Origin: Sipunculus nudus
Lineage: Eukaryota; Annelida; Sipuncula; Golfingiida; Sipunculidae
Direction of reading: 5' to 3'
Assembly (NCBI GenBank): GCA_026874595.1
Contig: CM049306.1
Span: forward strand, 22,799,019-22,863,018
Length of the DNA stretch: 64,000 nucleotides
Shown here: positions 3,801-52,600 of the stretch, piece after piece
Layout of the letters: every line of letters begins with the position of its first letter
Numbering within the stretch: position 1 is the stretch's first letter
Position numbers and translations under genes: made by a program
The notes under the pieces: model-generated
What the model was told of the DNA's origin: nothing
What the model saw: only the letters and a program-made list of their open reading frames with translations
Database searches by the model: none

Positions 3801-6800
3801 AGGTTGATAGGTCACACATTGAATTAATGAGTCACACAAACAGTTTTCTATGAACCCTTTTTAGCTGAATATCTTTATGATTCATAAAGAACTTTCATTC
3901 CCGGCAATTCAATATAAGTTAATCTGTCCTGAAAAAATGTACCATTATGTTTGTATGAAAAAAGGCAACTGAACTAGGCCTACCGGTAATAACTATTTTG
4001 TTGCTTTGGGAACTCTTTTGTACAGAGTATAACCACCAATGGTAAGAAGATTATACATTTCTGACTGGTGTGGATACAGCCTACACAGCCTATGCAAAAA
4101 ACAACAGAAACATTTCCTCTTATTGAGCATATCAACCCGGGTAGGTCGGATAAAGCTAAGACTTTTTTGGATTTATATGGATGATACTGCCAATCAGGGA
4201 ATGAGAGAAAAAAAAAATCTCTAAATCCAATAACTGTAAAATCATCAAAACCATCAGATAACTCCCATGGATTTTGATACTCACCGATTTGCTGGTAGAT
4301 GGCCATCAAATCACTCTGATCGATGATTCCATCACGGTTCTGGTCAATCATTGTGAAAGCCTGCATTTAAAAAGCTAAAAATGCAACTTCTGCATCTAAA
4401 GAAATATGCTGTGCTTTAAAAATTATTTTGTAATATAATAAAAAAAGTAAATTTATATACAGATTATTACATAAACTGTTTTCAAATGAGCAAGACCTGT
4501 CCACATATATGTTACCACATACTTACATTTAATAAATAAACTTAAAAAATTTACTGATGTACAGAGTTACCAATGGTGTTAAGATTTTGCTTTTCTTCAA
4601 AGGTTCACTGTAAGTCTAATTTTCATATATGAGCTGTAAAACAAATCTGCTAAAGATAGTAAAACTAATACTGAAATGGGTAGGAAGATACATCCTCCTT
4701 ACACTTATAAAATTTTCTTCATCAAATTTTTTCATTAGTTAATGGTTATAAGTATAATTATTATTATTATTAGCATGCCAGAAAAGATTTTTCTTCAGGT
4801 TAAAATATGTAAGTATTTTATAAAGAAAAATCCATTAAATTTCTATATTATTTCAAACGGAAGCATATAATAAATAAATATTCAAATTAACATTAGTACA
4901 CATTTTTAATCCAGTTATTATTCCTAGAACTACTCAAAAAGGTAGTATATCCATAAAAATAAATTATGCAGTAACTAGCTTATTAAAAGCAATAAAAATA
5001 TCTTAAGTGGTGCATACAATATAGAGTTCAATCCTGAAATGTGTGATTTATGTTTAGTTGATATTTTGCAAATATAAGATAACTTGTATCATAATTCCAA
5101 AATGTTCAAGATAAAAATTTATTAAAAATGTATTTTCACCATCAGTTTACTGACAGTTGGTCAGAGCCAAGTCAGATTGTATCTTACAAATTAACCCACT
5201 GTGAACAAATTTCAGTATTTCCAAAGAGAAATATTCCTTTGTTGATAACAAACTAAATATATTCTTATTCTTAATATTCAAGAAATTTTCTCTATTGAAT
5301 GCACCATGATCAAACACTTTGCTTTCTAAACATGCTTATTAAAGTACAGAAAAGAAAGAGCTAGAGTTTTCAGGTGAAAATTTCAGATTATATTTCTAAT
5401 TTCAATCACTCATGCAAAATCTATACAGATTAACATTGTGCAAAAGTGTGTAAAATTATATCTAAAGAAGATCAGCTATCAGAGGCTATATATGTGTCAA
5501 AGATGAAGACAAACAGAATTTCCAAAACTAGAAGTATCCAAAAATATGATACTAAATCAAAATAAAAATTTCTGGTAAATGTAAGATTTGTTTCTGAAAT
5601 ATCTATCAAACAGAAGGAATTTTCTTTTACATGATGTTGATAGGAAATACTTTTTTTCATGGGGAAACAGCATTGGAAAATTATTAGTATATCACAATTT
5701 TTGGTTTGTCAAATTTGAGGCAATTCCAGCATTTATATACAAAGATCTGCTTCTAATCACCACACAGAAAAATCACAACACTTCATGCCATCACAGGAGG
5801 AAGACGATGACATACCTGTGGACACTGGGATATCTTATAGGTTTACCTGCAACAGCTTTGTTGTACCTTCTCTTACCTGTGTCTGCTTGAGCAGAATTAA
5901 AAAGCCATGCGCTGGGATATTTTTCTGTATGAGGTCACTGATTTTGGGTTGCTGTTGTATGTCACACAGACAGTTAAGTTGGACTGGATTTCTATGAGGT
6001 TTTTCATCGCTTTATAAATTAAAAAACAAGGGGAATCTCACACTCAGGATATGAAAATAAAAAGACGTCATATTGTATATTTGTTCGGTTTTCCTCTTCA
6101 GGTGCTCTGAAATAGACAGGGTGCTAACTATACAACATTTGGGGATCATCATATGACACATGGATAGCTGGGAAACTAAATTAGGTATTACAGTTAATTC
6201 TACATTAGGTTTGGTGCCAAGTAGTGTGTTGAGAGGGCTGGGAAACTAAGTTAAAAACTAGAGACTATATTTATATTAGGCATGCTAAGCAGTTTGTAAA
6301 AAGGTTCCCACATTTTTTTTCAGATTTCATTTTCAATATCTGTTTGAAGGTTTTAAATGAAATAAAATACAATTTTGACAAAATAATTTGATTTGACTTC
6401 ATAGATCCTGTAACCCATGGAATCCTGCCATACTTTTCCTTCCTTTTTTTATCCTCATTTCCATGCATAATTCCAATTTACATAAATAATGAAATCTTTG
6501 GTTTTCTTTGTCAGCCACAAGAAAGTAAAATTCAAGAAATGTTTAAGGAAAATTTTAAATTTATCTAATTCACACTTCATGATGCTGAAAACAAAAAAAA
6601 ACTATTTCAAGGAATTTAAAAATGTGGGAACCCTGATATTCATAATGTAGCTGGGAAACTAAATACGGAAATAGAGTGTATATCTGCTATAGATGTGACA
6701 TGCCAAGCAGTGTAATAATGATGCATGCTGGGTAAGGGCAAACCTCTTTGAATTCCTGGATCTGTGCCTGATTGAACATGGCGAAGACATTGGAGGTAGC

Positions 6801-29456: not shown

Positions 29457-30864
29457 AGGCTGAACCATCCCTTACTGATATGTCACATAACCCAAGCTGA
29501 ACCATAACGCACTGATATGTTACATAACCAAGGCTGAACTGATACATCACATAACTCTGGCTGAACCATAACCTACTGATATGACACATAACCAAGGCAG
29601 AACCATAACTCACAGATATGTCACTTAACCCTGGCTGAACCATAATCCACTGATATGTTACATAACTAAGGCTGAACCATGACCAACTAATATGTCTGAT
29701 AACTAAGGCTGAACCATAACCCATAACCTACTGATATGTCACATTACCCAGGATGAACCACAACCTACTGATATGTCACATTACCCAGGATGAACCATAA
29801 CCTACTGATATGTCACATTACCAAGGGTGAACCATAACGCACTGATATGTCAGATAACTAAGGCTGAACCATAACCCATAACCTACTGATATGTCACAAA
29901 ACCCAGGATGAACCATAACCTACTGATATGTCACATTACCCAGGTTGAACCATAATCCACTGATATGTCACATAACCCTGGCTGAACAATAACCCACTGA
30001 TATGTCACGTAACCCTGGCTGAACCATAATCCACTGATATGTCACATAACCCTGGCTGAACCATAACCCACTGATATGTCACATAACCCAGGCTGGATTA
30101 TAACCTACTGATATGTCACATTACCCAGGATGAACCATAACCTACTGATATGTCACATAACCCTGGCTGAACCATAACCCACTGATATGTCACATAACCC
30201 AGGCTGGATTATAACCTACTGATATGTCACATTACCCAGGCTCAACCATAACCTACTGATATGTCACATAACCCAGGCTGGATCATAACCTACTGATATG
30301 TCACATTACCCAGGCTCAACCATAACCTACTGATATGTCACATTACCCAGGATGAACCATAACCTACTGATATGTCACGTAACCAAGGCTGAACCATAAC
30401 CTACTGATATATCACATAACCAAGGCTGAACCATAATCTACAGATATGTCATATAACCCTGGCTGAACCATAATCTACTGAAATGTCACATAACCCTGGC
30501 TGAACCATAACCTACTGATATGTCACATAACCCTGGCTGAACCATAATCCACTGATATGTCACATAACCCTGGCTGAACCATAACCTACTGATATGTCAC
30601 ATAACCCAGGCTGAACCATAACCTACTGATATGTCACATTACCCAGGCTGAACAATAACCCACTGATATGTCACATAACCCAGGCTGGACCATAACCTAC
30701 TGATATGTCACATTATACCAAGGATGAACCATAACCTACTGATATGTCACATAACCCAGGCTGAACCATAACCTACTGATATGTCACATTACCCAGGCTG
30801 AATCATGTCCTACTGATATGTCACATAACACTGGCTGAACCATAACCCACTGATATGTCAGATA
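29457..30864. repeat. 37-bp minisatellite, about 38 copies
   Basis: The unit resembles tactgatatgtcacataacc followed by caggctgaaccataacc, 37 bp in all, with point variants. Higher-order structure is visible: a variant with ggctggattataacc recurs at 30091 and 30202 (111 bp, three units), with a relative at 30276 (74 bp, two units). A variant with a doubled aacccataacc recurs near 29,705 and 29,867. Open frames inside it are artefacts of the period. Confidence 0.95.
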
Positions 30865-40647: not shown

Positions 40648-43600
40648 GTGAGACTAACATGGATCTCATTGCCATCAGTAAATATTGCCATGGTTGTGTA
40701 AAAGTTAGGAAAATATAAATTCACTCAGTGGTAATTAACTGTTGTCAGTATGTAATTGGTGAATCTTTAGTTGTTTTTTTTTTCTTATTAATCAAAAAGG
40801 GGAGCAACTATAGAATCCATCCTACAGGTATGGGAGTGAAATCAGGCTGCTGTTTTCATCAACGAAAAAATGAGGGTTAAATTTTGTTAAGCATATGCAA
40901 TGTCCGGGCATTTTGCAAAAGCATAAAAAAATAAGGTACGACTATAGAAACCGGGCTTCACCCCAACTTGCATAACATATGCATGAAGTCATGCATTCTG
41001 TTGATAAACAGTACATATGTCATCAATAACGAGTATATGAATACTTTTTATGCCTACCACGTTCGCAATAAATCAGTATCCACCCACGCTAAAAGGTACT
41101 CAGCTCTGCTATTCTATCGTCAACGTGACAAAGTGTTTACATGTTCCTCCATGTTTACTGACAATTCCCGTCTTGCTCTTGTGTAGTAACGTGTGCACAA
41201 AGTCTGCCTACGTCACACACACTTTTCAGGGGGTGCACTAAAGCGTGGGTGTGGGGGCGCTAGCCCCCATTAATTCAATACGTAATTTTATATTTCCGTT
41301 TACTCTTTACGTTCTATTTCTTTTTCCCTCTTCTATAGTCAATTTACTCTTACCTTCTCTTAGATCCACTTCTCTTTATACAAGTTTCATCCTTAATTAT
41401 AAAGTGTGTACAATTAACGTCTTTGTCACGTGTGCCCTCATCCCACCAAGTAAGTGCAACTTCAACAATAACATCTGAAATACAATCATTTCCCCCATTG
41501 ATATATGTATGCAAATAATGCGGCTTCCTCTATTCGCTTAGCACACCACTGTCACATATTTTGCTTCAAACTACTCGCATAATCAGCATAACCAACCAGC
41601 ATTACGAAACAATTACACGTAGACGGACCCTTTGGAAATCCCCTGTGGAAATCCCCCTTTCTAAAAATAGTTCTCACCTGTGTCATTCCTCGCTTCGTGT
41701 TGTCAAACACACCGTCTCGCCACATGCATGAAAGAACGATCTGACTTCATCAGTTCAAAAATAATAAGAACAACTCACCAATATAGTTAATAAATATCAA
41801 TGGCATTTTTTTTACACATGGGGACCATTTTTACCATTAAGCATCTAACAAAATTTTTTCTCAGGTGCATGACACGTTAGGGCTATAAATCTTTCTAGTT
41901 TATTTATAAGATTCTAAATTTCCCTTTCTACTTACCATAACTATGTCAACTTCTTATGTACAATTTTTTCTGTTTTCTTTGGTTAAATACAAAATTTACA
42001 ACGGACATGTCCGCATCTGCCGTTGTAAATTCTCGCTGCATCAGCCATGAACTGCCTGAACAAATCTTTTCCACTGTGTTTTTCCCGCCACATGAACACA
42101 CTAAGGTACCCGGGTAAATGTTCTCCCTTCACTCCGAACCTTGGCATAGTAACCCCCCTCTTTACCTTCTGCCAAGTCCCTTCAATACTATTGGTATGAC
42201 ATCCACTGTCAGGGTCCTTGAAATTGGCACTGTGATTTACAGTTTCGTGGCGATATCCGTGAGCAGGCAAGCAGTCATAAGCTTTCCAGCAATCTGATTG
42301 TATTATTGATCCACGGGCTATATGTTTTTTTATCAAGGGAATCAAAGTCGCCGCGGATCTGTCTTGAACAGTGAACATGAACACTTTTTTCTTGTCAAAC
42401 TTTTCCCTTCCACCAAACACCCAACCCCCTTTTACTTCATGACCCCGATTGTACTTTCTTTTCGCAAATTTAGACTCGTCTATTTCTACGTAAACTCCGT
42501 GCCCTCCTATCTTCTCACCTCTATCAGAGTCTCTCAGTAGTGTTTCTTCGCACACTTCTCTACAAAAGCTGCTCCAATCCACAGCCGTATTACTGCTGCA
42601 ACCTGTCTCATATTTTATTTGAGACTGTGTATTTCCCACACACCACAAGTATGTTATATCCATTATTTCTTCTAGTGTCAATTTTGATAGCGAAAACCAG
42701 CTCCCATGTCTTATACTGAGTTTCATATTGTGACTTTTAGGTTTCCTTTTCTGGCATCTCCACTGATACATGTCATGGTTATCCTTATCATTAACAATTA
42801 CCAGTTTCATAGAACATTTACAAACGGGGCAGCTACGGCTGCGTGCCAACATACCCTGTTCCTGCAACCAAGCTATAGTTGCCTCTTTCGACACTAATAT
42901 TTCTCTCACTAGTTTTGTATGTGTGATATGCGTTGGTCGGCCAATGGTATCTTCTTTTCTTCTTTGGTAGCTACCCTTACTCCAACAGCATTGACTTCCA
43001 GCATCTACAGTTACAACATCATCAGTGCACGTGCCTGTCGACATCACCGACACCTTACTGGAACCCCCCGCTGTACTCACGCTTTTCTTTGGGTCATCTT
43101 TCTTACGGAGTTTTAATCGTCTTCTTTTGGCCTCCATATCTACAGGTTTTCCATCACTTTCATGTTGTCTTTTAAGCATTGTACCGTGTCCAGATATATT
43201 CACTATCATGTCATTTAACTTCTCTCTCAGACTATCAGGTCGTGCACTCTCCATGTTCGGGTGCGTTTACTATGACGGACCTTAGCAACTGTCAACTCTA
43301 TCATTCATTATGTAACAGTAACCAAAACGTCACATGACCATCAAATCGCCCAGTTAATCCCCTTGCAACCCCTAATGAATGTGTCACCTCCAACCTAATC
43401 CACACCTAACACCTCACTCTCAACACCATTATGAGATTCTTTCATTATTAGTAATAACGATTATATTTAATCATTATTGTTAAAGCGAGTTACCTACATT
43501 TCAATTTTATCAATACCTACCCTTTTTTATTCATTTCAAATCTAAATATCTGGTCATCGCGATGTCACCCGCAATTCTCACAAGTGAGTCCGCCCCTTCA

Positions 43601-46600
43601 ATACCATTTAAAAATTGTACCTATAAAGCCCAATAGGGGTCGCTACCGTTTCTTATGACGTCACCATTTCCCGTGTGCTGTCACATGGGATTTCACTGAC
43701 AATAGACTTAAATGCCCCAACTTTTCACGAACCGGCAACTTACCTTTGTGGCACAGTTGGTTACGCAGACGGCTTCTGAGCGTGCGGTTGGTGGTTCGAG
43801 TCTCATCATGCCTTCATATCATTGCATGTTGTTCATAATGTCATAATATGTCTAATAATTCACATGTCTCTCATTCATTCCAGATTACCAGTCTCGTATA
43901 TACCATACGCTCGCATAACAGATCACAAGGAATTCAGAAATAACTTGCCATAACGTTCTTTATTAATTGTTTGCCCCCCAAAAAAACTGCACCCCAGTTT
44001 TTCTCTATCCCCATCAAATATATCGCCCTCTTTAGCTAGTTCTCTGAACCAAGGTGAAGCCCGCGTTCTATAGTCGCTCCAAAAATAACCCTAACCTAAG
44101 TTAGTTAACTGCCTGCCTGTAAAATGTACTCCATCTTGTGCTTTGTGTAGACAAGGTCAACTGACTGGGTTTTTTTTGTAAACCTTAAACCCTTAAAATA
44201 TACCAAATTTTTATGTGGAATACTCCGAATAGGCCCGAGCAATGTGAATACAAATGCCTGAAGGGCCCAAGACAATGGTTGTGAATGACGTACACAGGAC
44301 GCGTTAAAGAGCTGCAAAGAATACAATCACTCAGTGTGCATGGGATCACCATTGGACAGGTAACGTAGGAAAGGTTCTATAGGTGGGCCTCAAAATGGTA
44401 TTGCCAAATAAGCTAGTTATTCATTAATTGTTTTATCATTGTAAAATTAGTCAGTGCATCTCAAAATACTACTGGAATATATTATTATGCTAAAATAAAT
44501 ATATCTCAGGTATGGTATCTAAATTGCAATGTGATGAATTAGTATATATGTATGCCTATAGAGTATAGTCTTTCCCAGTACAATTGTCTGCATGTTTTTC
44601 TGGGACAATTTTTCATACATGAGAAAATACTGCAATAAATTCTAGCTCAGTGGTTGCAGGAGCTATTGTGCCGACAGCCTGTATAAAAAATAATGGTATA
44701 CTTTGAATTGAATTTCTATGAGACAAATAATCCAAAATATGACAGAGCAGTAATCAATGTTTGCAACATGTTTATCACTGATGCACTGAGAAATAAATGA
44801 GCCATTCCAGCTGGTGATAACAGAAAATGCAGTTTCATACACGACCAACCTTTGCAATGTCTGTTTTTTTGTGTTTTTTTTTTTGCCTGATGTCCTTTAA
44901 TGGCTTTCTCATACACAAGACAGGTGGTGCCACCTACAATCATATCTTTTATGCATTTATTTGTGATTTGCTGCTTTGATATCTGACTAAAATTATGTAT
45001 GTCCATGGATCTAGGATGGCATTATCTTGTAAACCTGACTGGTGGTGCCCCCTACTGTTGTTATTTTTGGTTCCATCTATCCGTGTGCCTTTGGATACTT
45101 TGGCAACTCACTGCCATCTCTGATGTCTCAAATTTGAAGGACTGTCATGTTAAGAAACATTTCATCCCTCATTCCTATTCTAGTTAACCTCAGAGGTTAG
45201 TCAAATTTCATTGACATGTGGCAACAAAATTAAATGCAGTATGATTATGGTTTTATTAGCTCAGCTGACTGAAAGTCATCTGAGCTATAGCAATCACTCT
45301 TTTTGTCCGTCTGTCTGTCCGTCCATCTGTCTGTCTGTCTTTCATGCCGTCTGTACATCCGTTTACAGGTCACAAATCATAACATCTGGACCTAGAATCT
45401 TCTTACTTGACATCCAGGGAGGTCCCTGAAAAATCTCCTCGGAAACCTGAAATAAGTTCTCTGTTACCCATAGCCGACCTATAGGTTACTATACCAGAAT
45501 AATCAAAAATTTAATACAAAAGCTGCAGTATATGAACAACTAATGTATTGATCACTAGGATTATGTGCATGCATATTGATCATGGAGTGAATCATCAATT
45601 TCTGCAGACTGGTGGCACCACCTGTATTCTGAATGTTTACAATTTTTTTCTCTGTTTTTGAGACCTTCAATGATGCAGTCCTCCATTTACAGGGTACAAA
45701 TTGTAACCATTCAACGTAGAATCTTCTAATGTAACATCCTCCTTTGAAACCTGAATTAGGGCTCTATTACCCATATCCTCCAAGCTATGGGGCACAGAAC
45801 TTTCTACAAAAATAATTAAAAATTTGTTAAAAAAAAACTCCAGTATCACAACTAATACATTGATCACCATGATTCTTTGCATGAATATTCATCATGGAGT
45901 GTTACATCAGTTCCTACAGACTGGTGGCGCAACCTGGATTTTTTAGATTTTTTACACATTTTTTTGTAAATTTTAAGACCTTCAAAGATGTGTGGCCTGT
46001 TAACAGGGCACAAATTGAACCGTTGATCCTAGAATCTTCTTGACATCTGGGGAGGTCTATAAAAAAATCTCCTTGAAAACCTGAAATTAGGTCTCTGTAA
46101 CCCATATCTTTTGAGTTATAGGGCTTGTAATTACCCCTCAGTATAATTAAAAAGTTTATACAAAGCCTCCAGTTTATGAACAACTGATGCATTGATCACC
46201 ATGAATCTTTGCATGCACATTCATCATGGAGTGTATCATCAGTTCGAGCAGACTTGTGGTGCAACCTGTATTTTACCATATTTTTACACATTTTTAAATT
46301 TTTTTTTTTTAGACCTTTTAAGCTGCACTGGTACATCAAAAGGGCACAAATCAGAACCATTGCACTTAGAATCTTCTTACTTGACATCCAGGAAGGTCCA
46401 TGAAAAATCTCCTTGGAAACCTGAAATGAGGTCTCTGTTACCCATATCCTTCAAGCTATGCTTCAGTTGAATGGAGATCCCAAATACAAAATTTGGCATT
46501 CAGATAATAAAATTCCTTTTGTGAATGTCCTCCTAGTCAGCTGAGCATCATGACCCCTGGGCCACATGTTTTTACTTAAAACAGAGAAGAAAAAATGGAT

Positions 46601-49600: not shown

Positions 49601-52600
49601 ATTTCCGCTTTTATTGCACAAGCACATTTTCATTACAAATTAAGTAATATATCCTTAAACAATTTGTACCTTGTATATGCTGTAATTTATCCACTACATT
49701 ACTTTGTTCATAAGCATTAGGTTTTACATGTGTATTTTGATTCTCTTTTCACACACTGCTTTAAATATTCGGAGAAAATGAACTTTTGTTGGCATTTATA
49801 AGGAGAGCAATATAAACATTATTTTATATATAAGATTTTTAAACTGATTTATTCTTGTAGATTATGATAGTTAATAAAATGATTTCTCCTCAGCTTCAGG
49901 TCACAGGACTCTCTTGGAACTCCACTGGTGCAGTAATAGCTACAGCATATCCTTTACTGATATTACAAAAACAGTTGTATTGCAGCTGTCTGTATTCACA
50001 CCACAATTTATTTATTTATCTTATACAACTTATATACTTATTAGTATCAAATTTCAAAGCAATATGCTGTGTGCATTTGAATTTGAACTGCCCTTTTAAA
50101 AAATAATATGAATTGAATGTTAAACAATGAATACAAATTTTAAAACAAACCATTTTTTCTCGAGATTCATTACAATAAATAAATGTTTTCATGTACGTTT
50201 TTTCCTGATTTTTAAGTAGAACTTACTAGGATTAAAGCTTAGTACAGTATTTATTTTCCAGGTGAATAAGGGATGCATTAAGCTAGCTGAAAAAAGATTA
50301 CCCAGCAAGCTGTTTGTGTGTAAATCATTAGATCATGTAAAAAGAAAATATATGATACACAGAAGAATTTTATTGGCCAATGTTGATCAAGAACCTAGGC
50401 ATATGCTCTGATGAATATGTTTCTAGTATACTGTCTGCAGATGATATGCAAATGGTATACCCTAAAACTAAAGGTAAATTGTAAATATTGGAAACCTTTT
50501 GGCCTTACCAAAGACAGTGTTTTCTTTAACTCCCACCAGAGGACATGTCAAGTATTGTGCAAAGTACCTTTTTGACTCAAACAGCAGTTTAACCACTTTG
50601 AGATTCCTTCAGCTCACTGTTTCTGTGTTTTATATTATTGATGTGACACCCTTAACCCTTCTAACATATGGGCGCCATGACCATGAAGATTGGTGTACAC
50701 ATAAATCCACACTGTGTACGTGGAACATTGATCGACAAAACATGAAGGCCAATAAACCTGACTTGTCAATAGATGTCTCTAGCTGTCTCATGTGTATCAG
50801 TTTTCATCCATCACAACCTGGTTGGATCGTAGGTGGTACATTTAATGGTAAGTGATGTGTCTGAATTTATTCCCATTAAATATGCATCTTGGCATAAATT
50901 ATGCAGTACAGAGATATGCATGTGTAGACATGACCAATTTAAATTTTGTTACATGACTGGTTTGTAAAACTCTTTATTTCTGTTATCATCATAATAAATG
51001 ACATGGATTATCTATACTGACTCGATGGTCTTTGCCACTTGCTTGAATTCATTTATTACATAATAGTCATGAAATCAACAACTTCTGATTATGTTATTCA
51101 AACTTCATCTGTACATGTTTGTATTTCAAGGATCACGTATTGTGTACATAAATTGTACAAAGTAATTGATAAAATTATCAGTTAAATTTCATAATTTATA
51201 AAAAAAAATCAGTGTTTCAGTTTTGCTAATAGAAAAACATTGTGATTTCAAGTCTACTATTTTACATTATGCTGATTTAGGTGAAGTGAAATGTTGACAA
51301 ACAGTGAAAAGATAATGTAATATTGGTTTTCATGTAAGGAAATCTGACAAATATGTACATCTGTAACGCATACAGATAACCATGTCAAAAACTTTTTAAC
51401 TATAAGACAAGCATTAATTTGGTTTACTTTGGCCTGAACTAATTGGACATTTGCTTGATCCACTGCTTGACCATTAGGAATAGTAGTATATTAAGTCAAG
51501 GTGTGTTACTCATTTTACTTAATGTGACCCGTTTCACTTTTTCCTAGTGATCAAATGGAATGTCATTTAGGCTGATATTCAAATTCACACATACATAAAC
51601 ATATATATTTATTACATAGTTCTATAAATTAACAGACAATTTGTCCTTTGTAAATTTTGAAAATTTTGCTTTCATTTAGAACTTGCTTTTACATTTTACT
51701 GTAATTTTGTGTGTGTGAAAAAAAACCTCAAGGATCTATTCTGCCAAATCTAACATGTTCAGGCTGCTTACACCATTATCATTGTGTTAGTGTTGCATCT
51801 TGTGCTGCCTATATTGTTCTTTTTATTGAATAACTAGGTGAAGTGATAGTATGGGACACAAGCAGAGAAGATGAGATGGTCATAGCAACATCAGGGATAG
51901 GTGATGACTCCCACAGAGAACCTGTATCCAAAGTTATGTGGGTCAAAGACCCAGACTCCAAGGGCAAAAAATACCTGGTAGGAACAGTAGAGCAAATTTG
52001 TGTTTCATGTTAACTAGAAATGTTATTCTTATCATAAGCAAACAGTACAACACAATGGGTGTAAATTTGATGCAGAATGTATATCTGTATAAACTTGCCC
52101 AGTCAAACTATTATTCTGCATACCAGTACATTAATTCAGTTATATACTAGTTTTGGATCTTTCCATTTTGTATTATGGTAGTCATTTTTTTTCAAATACA
52201 ACAAGGGTTATAACAATAAACTTTTCACATCTGTGATTAAGAAGAAGAAACAGACAAAGCTTAAATTTTGTTGTAACTTTTGCATATAATTCAGAAAATG
52301 GCCTTAATAAGATTAATATTTTTTTCAGTGACTAGTGTGTCAGTCTGTCATGAGATGGAGATGTATAGTTAAATAATTGGTTCCCCTACCAAGGGTGAGC
52401 ACTCTGAAGGCTTAATGGTAAGACTATGCCAAATGATCATGTTTCACTCAGAAATGAGTGCACAGTTTGGGTGTGGGGGTTCTTCATTGTACTGACACAA
52501 GAATGGGTAAGATTTCACACCCAGTTCCAGCAGTTGTCGTACACTGAGCCTGATTGATGCCAGGATATTTGTGTACTAACTCCTGCACATAGTCTTAAAT

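Follow-up and report, generated by a model that had tools for sequence, protein, structure and literature searches.

A young Merlin transposon of Sipunculus nudus with conserved tRNA-like A and B boxes and a near-invariant block at its right end

We analysed a stretch of 64,000 nucleotides from the annelid Sipunculus nudus (GenBank assembly GCA_026874595.1, contig CM049306.1, positions 22,799,019 to 22,863,018, forward strand), here called the window, and found in it a complete DNA transposon of the Merlin superfamily. The element occupies window positions 40935-44080 (3146 bp, with 103 CpG dinucleotides) and encodes a transposase, the sole open reading frame (ORF) of at least 150 aa (ATG, GTG or TTG start) in the 64-kb window. 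Comparison of the window copy with divergent Merlin subfamilies revealed two noncoding features 5' of the transposase that are better kept than their surroundings, namely a pair of boxes like those of transfer RNA (tRNA) genes and a block near the right end. The parts that define the element are:

40927-40934, no strand: left 8-bp target-site duplication (TSD), AAAAATAA
40935-40962, plus strand: left terminal inverted repeat (TIR), begins 5'-GG
41983-43254, minus strand: transposase, 423 aa, uninterrupted ORF
Transposase residues about 140-182: CxxC zinc-ribbon-like region
Transposase residues about 194-244: helical region
Transposase D259/D321/E358: RNase H-like DDE core
Transposase C-terminus: CX4CX2C motif
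44053-44080, minus strand: right TIR, 28 bp
44081-44088, no strand: right 8-bp TSD, AAAAATAA

The 28-bp TIRs are imperfect, with 24 of 28 positions identical and GG at either end, and the 8-bp TSD is perfect on both flanks. The element thus has Merlin-type TIRs (at least 24 bp, starting 5'-GG), a TSD of Merlin length (8 or 9 bp) and a DDE_Tnp_IS1595 domain with its D, D and E, and every Merlin trait given in the main text of PMC8101967 that can be checked in sequence was found in it. The boundaries are beyond chance, because other copies share the ends but have different 8-bp TSDs and because the joined flanks match other loci straight through the insertion point.

Residues 251-391 of the transposase matched PF12762 (DDE_Tnp_IS1595, E=3.5e-23), and the protein scored 93.3 bits against the NCBIfam IS1595 model (transpos_IS1595), above the cut-off of 75. 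Across 14 aligned transposases of the host genome (the window copy and 13 others), D321 and E358 show no variation and D259 almost none, one relative (L048) having lost it. An initial annotation of this DNA had placed the element at 40927-44088, TSDs included, with 24 of 28 TIR positions matching, identical 8-bp duplications and an intact transposase with all three catalytic residues; the coordinates proved exact, the repeat count and duplication came out the same on re-checking, and the profile matches and alignment bear out the enzyme. The CxxC...C region is conserved in the alignment, even though no Pfam match to Zn_Tnp_IS1595 was found in the window transposase at E<=1; according to the main text of PMC8101967, that domain is lacking in every Merlin so far described. 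An AlphaFold2 model of the transposase has a mean predicted local distance difference test score (pLDDT) of 67.8; its N-terminus is disordered, and confidence is low in the region of E358. For its ordered part, the nearest Foldseek neighbours were ISCth4, retroviral integrases, TnsB and MuA, at query template-modelling (TM) scores that are low (about 0.14-0.24), as the N-terminus is long and disordered and the E358 region of low confidence; judged from the model, these neighbours would fit an RNase H-like DDE core. A single match turned up among solved structures by sequence, a sugar isomerase (E=0.0018), which we rejected as chance-like, and no relatives of the element were found in viral contigs by protein search or by block pattern.

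We searched the host assembly (1.43 Gb, 153 contigs) for further copies. The transposase protein search, in which 99 of 415 candidates were scored and which makes all copy counts lower bounds, gave at least 102 matches. Five further full-length copies are 99.1-99.5% identical to the window element over about 3.1 kb (blastn) and differ from it at 12, 13, 16, 24 and 27 substitution sites (0.38-0.86%), and in three of these five the transposase is uninterrupted. Full-length transposases without stops occur in at least four copies, the window included; a fifth copy has one stop and a sixth has two. Perfect and mutually different 8-bp TSDs flank 7 of 10 copies (L013, L014, L015, L017, L018, L019 and the window copy). 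L016 lies inside a short tandem repeat and has no clean 8-bp TSD, and the left ends of L020 and L021 are damaged. The copies that are about 99% identical, at least six in number, are the product of a recent burst. Near-identical copies, intact ORFs, perfect TSDs and paralogous empty sites together support the conclusion that the window copy is young and that the family was recently mobile. This agrees with the initial annotation, which had called the element structurally complete, probably young and a candidate active copy, a candidate status that it keeps here from its sequence. That annotation had also proposed a search for copies above 95% identity and had named uniformly diverged relatives as the finding that would speak against it, and the five young copies show the opposite. 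Its argument from the rarity of complete Merlins is weak, given the number of transposase matches in this genome and the preserved Merlin ORFs that the main text of PMC8101967 lists for several animals. Elsewhere in the assembly, several same-strand Merlin end fragments lie within 0.55 Mb (G000:C9:57454000-57994500), as if locally amplified.

The joined flanks of the window element were scored against 40 of 171 candidates, which comprised the window itself and 39 other matches. All 39, a lower bound, span the insertion junction at 71-81% identity, and in one aligned paralogous empty site the AAAAATAA region is single, with one extra T. Since the joined flanks match across the junction elsewhere, the target of the insertion was a copy of an older dispersed repeat, which surrounds the element at 40867-40934 and 44089-44300. 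A 15-mer like the Merlin right end, GGAGCAACTATAGAA, lies at 40801-40815, 134 bp outside the element, and may be a stub of another element.

The window copy has eight private substitutions, five of which are CpG transitions (CpG to TpG or CpA), a pattern that suggests germline methylation. The copy might accordingly be intact by chance and silenced, with its burst over, a reading that is compatible with any account of the right end. Besides the CpG transitions, which stand against 103 CpG dinucleotides still present, this reading can draw on V417, the only private residue of the window copy among intact copies. At least four copies with an open ORF argue the other way, as does the comparison of the window transposase with that of L018 (4% diverged), where dN of 0.010 and dS of 0.049 (dN/dS about 0.2) indicate purifying selection. 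We consider silencing a serious possibility that falls somewhat short of an even chance.

At the right end, on the 5' side of the transposase, we observed the following features:

43706-43718, plus strand: TATA-like motif ACTTAAATGCCCC, about 40 bp ahead of the A box
43737-44002, plus strand: predicted RNA polymerase III (Pol III) transcript, about 266 nt, its start putatively set by a conserved CAAC
43749-43760, plus strand: A box of Pol III type, TGGCACAGTTGG, all 8 informative positions matched
43793-43803, plus strand: B box of Pol III type, GGTTCGAGTCT, matched at 9 of the 10 informative positions, 32 nt past the A box
43852-43883, plus strand: branch-point/polypyrimidine/CAG-like string (CTAATAATTC...TCTCTC...CCAG), conserved in the Merlin clade
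43977-44040, no strand: near-invariant right subterminal block, from a 15-cluster alignment
43998-44002, plus strand: TTTTT within the block, a putative Pol III terminator

The textbook consensus is TRGYNNARNNGG for the A box and GGTTCGANTCC for the B box. In the window the two boxes lie on the plus strand and point away from the transposase toward the right end. With thresholds of 6 of 8 positions for the A box, 8 of 10 for the B box and a distance of 29-36 nt, the pair at 43749-43803 is the only one on either strand of the 64-kb window. The TTTTT at 43998 is the first run of four or more T downstream of the B box. An A box, a B box at tRNA-like spacing and an interval free of T-runs, the sequence criteria for a Pol III type-2 promoter, are thus all present. 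The initial annotation had described the element correctly and had missed this Pol III-like module and the block. A candidate splice donor on the minus strand near the A box (AAG|GTAAGT) was discarded, as it is not conserved between subfamilies.

Next, we surveyed Merlin right ends across the genome. A 31-mer of the block matched 260 genome places at up to 3 mismatches and its reversed control matched none. The survey covered 59 sequences: the window, L018, 18 loci identified through their transposase, and 39 loci hand-picked from those with 0 or 1 mismatch among the places listed, of 260, for the block pattern. The right end was recognisable in 53 of the 59, and the other six were dropped before counting. 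An A and B box pair at the thresholds was present in 42 of 53 right ends, compared to 0/53 on the minus strand, 0/53 in reversed sequences and a mean of 0.3/53 in 20 shuffles. The boxes are 31 or 32 nt apart in 39 of the 42 modules. Among the 27 modules whose B box is of the GGTT type, 26 have their A box 318-336 bp from the right end and the remaining one has it at 348 bp; for the GGAT type (n = 15) the distance is 322-389 bp. For some modules the right end was extrapolated, and CTCC or CTTC is read there in just 31 of 42.

The 42 module-bearing ends fall into 15 clusters at 80% identity, and the order and orientation of the right-end features are constant across their alignment. Mean pairwise identity over the 15 clusters is 0.885 for the block (60 columns), 0.819 and 0.768 for the informative positions of the B and A box, respectively, and 0.797 for the TATA-like motif (10 columns). 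It drops to 0.521 in the spacer between the boxes, 0.437 in the distal interval and 0.568 in the outermost 26 bp. Third codon positions are only 0.377 identical between subfamilies, with dS saturated and not computable. Because synonymous sites are saturated while the box positions are kept, the boxes look to be maintained by selection, beyond shared ancestry, as far as alignment can tell.

Between the B box and the block, TTTT occurs 4 times in the 15 clusters, compared to 16.4 +/- 2.9 in dinucleotide shuffles, none of which (0/1000) was as low. AAAA in the same interval (14 vs 10.3 expected) and TTTT upstream of the A box (12 vs 8.9 expected) are not depleted. In 14 of 15 clusters the first T-run follows the B box at 180-199 nt; in 13 of 15, counting L057, it is the T-run of the block. 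In a comparable interval, T-runs are present in 4 of 9 right ends without a module and in 3 of 44 with one (Fisher p 0.012), a weak comparison, uncorrected for relatedness, in which L077 and L091, whose boxes are just below threshold, were counted as module-bearing.

These data bear on an alternative account of the boxes, in which the element is an ordinary young Merlin and the boxes are the functionless relic of a tRNA-derived short interspersed element (SINE) that landed in an ancestral Merlin. The boxes are indeed SINE-like in lacking a detectable cloverleaf, and a relic would suit the right ends that fail the thresholds and the weak A boxes of the short relatives described below. A decaying relic sits poorly with boxes that stay at 0.77-0.82 identity despite third codon positions at 0.377, next to a spacer that falls to 0.52, with a TTTT depletion specific to strand and interval, and with the near-fixed distance of GGTT-type A boxes from the right end. 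We therefore regard a relic as distinctly unlikely. An actual tRNA SINE unit with its own tail and TSD was rejected, as the module is internal to TIR elements with 8-bp TSDs.

Non-autonomous relatives carry the boxes as well. The core pattern of the TIR was found at 572 genome places at up to 1 mismatch, with 0 for its reversed control. Of 14 such places that were fetched, 10 hold elements that have both ends and measure 531-559 bp, that is, miniature inverted-repeat transposable elements (MITEs) of about 550 bp; we treat them as one family and hence as one observation. Their TSDs are perfect over 8 bp in 5 of 10 and match at 7 of 8 positions in 3 more. Mean pairwise identity is 92%, and the MITEs are therefore older than the young Merlin copies. 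All 10 have a B box at 8 of 10 positions or better, about 215 bp from the right end; the first TTTT comes 103-109 nt past this box, and 3-5 TTTT runs lie ahead of the A box, which speaks for a module of the same kind. Comparison to the letters of the window had suggested MITEs without the module, a reading that the box scan ruled out. L094, L095 and L096 have no transposase match and carry an A/B pair at full thresholds, and the pair is likewise present in six loci of the L095 kind (L022-L027). A tRNA-Ala gene adjoins one such non-autonomous Merlin-like element (L024:116-189) and is the only tRNA in 65 loci scanned; with none in the 64 others, we rejected targeting of tRNA genes in favour of chance.

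A second alternative is that the boxes bind the factor TFIIIC without being transcribed, in the manner of extra-TFIIIC sites, and serve in cis as a barrier or insulator by which the element stays open. Conservation of box positions in the absence of a conserved RNA structure would suit binding alone, and the MITEs, which need no transposase promoter, keep the B box better than the A box. Binding has no need of the downstream TTTT depletion or of a T-run at a fixed distance, and we hold this alternative to be rather unlikely. It is very improbable that the box-like strings and the block are binding sites of the transposase that resemble tRNA boxes by chance. Their fixed spacing from one end and the B-box-like string kept in MITEs would suit such sites; two textbook boxes at 31-32 nt on one strand only, with no second pair in 64 kb, would not, and the T-run pattern and the absence of the block from MITEs would be left unexplained.

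Several observations weigh against a Pol III unit. The box thresholds were chosen after a first look at the data, and 11 of 53 right ends fall below them. Common ancestry links the clusters and the MITEs, so that their counts do not represent independent events. In two clusters of the 15 (L052 and L056), the first T-run lies ahead of the block. The MITEs have a weak A box, which matches at 4-6 of 8 positions and is 31-32 nt from the B box, and only 3 of 10 pairs pass the Merlin thresholds. The near-invariant block is absent from the MITEs (L028-L041), where the sole block match is a neighbouring Merlin end within L039. A real tRNA gene was excluded, as Rfam and ARAGORN found neither one nor a cloverleaf in the module stretches tested, and a conserved RNA fold was rejected too: the consensus of 10 sequences has 4 pairs at -2 kcal/mol, and the fold of the window RNA has a z of -0.33, its sole local feature being an A-run/T-run hairpin at the 3' end. 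With neither a cloverleaf nor a conserved fold, it is promoter-like positions that are kept and not an RNA structure.

Taking both sides together, we consider it reasonably probable that the window holds an autonomous Merlin with a recent burst, from a clade that carries a predicted Pol III type-2 unit probably acting in cis. The DDE transposase would bind the ends, excise the element and reinsert it with an 8-bp duplication, a chemistry that we infer from the family; the outcome of this cycle is evident in copy number, TSDs and empty sites. The TATA-like motif, A box and B box would form a type-2 promoter 5' of the transposase that faces away from it, and the predicted transcript of about 270 nt would terminate at the T-run in the near-invariant block. 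While the architecture of the module and its conservation are plain in the alignments, Pol III transcription is what they lead us to infer. We favour a role in cis because the module is also kept by non-autonomous relatives that lack a transposase. Each copy may be kept open to the transposase by bound Pol III or TFIIIC, or, alternatively, each copy may produce a small RNA. For the block, a part in the transposase promoter or in its control is more likely, as suggested by its absence from the MITEs. Were the transposase transcript to start in the block, its leader would be complementary to the predicted RNA of about 270 nt, and antisense control of that leader is possible, loosely like RNA-OUT of IS10. 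The broader proposal, in which the Merlins of this clade and their MITEs have their own Pol III gene, whose RNA or open site serves each copy in cis and whose RNA could in autonomous elements also be antisense to the transposase leader, is one we put forward tentatively, as slightly less than an even prospect.

In DNA transposons, the transposase is thought to depend on Pol II and mobility on the end sequences, and a promoter resembling that of tRNA genes is not expected in this kind of mobile element. We know of no RNA- or TFIIIC-based layer in the biology of cut-and-paste transposons. If a Pol III unit is selected across the clade and rides in its MITEs, it would point to such a layer, and several near-identical intact copies in the host make the Pol III reading directly testable. 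Even without a Pol III unit, this is a recently mobile animal Merlin family with intact relatives and empty sites.

Two other places in the window have exon-like matches: 50478-50855 (plus strand) to cytoplasmic dynein 2 intermediate chain 2 (WDR34, E=2.7e-17), and 3980-4366 (minus strand) to proteins of the EF-hand type, among them calmodulin and myosin regulatory light chain. A 1.4-kb tandem array with periods of 37, 74 and 111 bp spans 29459-30864. In the assembly, 9 of 11 COX1-type matches are on unplaced contigs (C60, C61, C62, C66, C72, C74, C75 and C89), where they are full and without stops; a fragment is on C5 and another match on C123. The sequences on unplaced contigs are probably from a bacterial symbiont or contaminant.

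Finally, we compared the element with known systems. Like the module, tRNA-derived SINEs have internal A and B boxes but no cloverleaf that can be detected. The module is different in lying within TIR elements that have 8-bp TSDs, whether or not these encode a transposase. The Merlin-type MITEs of the same genome (about 550 bp) have the TIR sequence, 8-bp TSDs and a B box with a weaker A box at one end in common with the window element, and differ from it in having neither transposase nor near-invariant block. The IS1595 family and IS1016 insertion sequences of bacteria share the transpos_IS1595 match above cut-off and an 8-bp TSD, whereas the window element has a eukaryotic host, a length of about 3.1 kb, long noncoding flanks and no Zn_Tnp_IS1595 match. 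Searches of the open PubMed Central literature, judged by title and start of abstract, yielded no paper that describes a Pol III promoter or a tRNA-like unit in Merlins or in other transposons with TIRs, and the terms tRNA, promoter, polymerase III and subterminal are absent from the main text of PMC8101967. Compared to the Merlin superfamily as described in that text, the window element has the same 5'-GG TIRs, 8-bp TSD and DDE_Tnp_IS1595 transposase with its triad and without Zn_Tnp_IS1595, and is set apart by conserved tRNA-like A and B boxes together with a near-invariant block in one flank.

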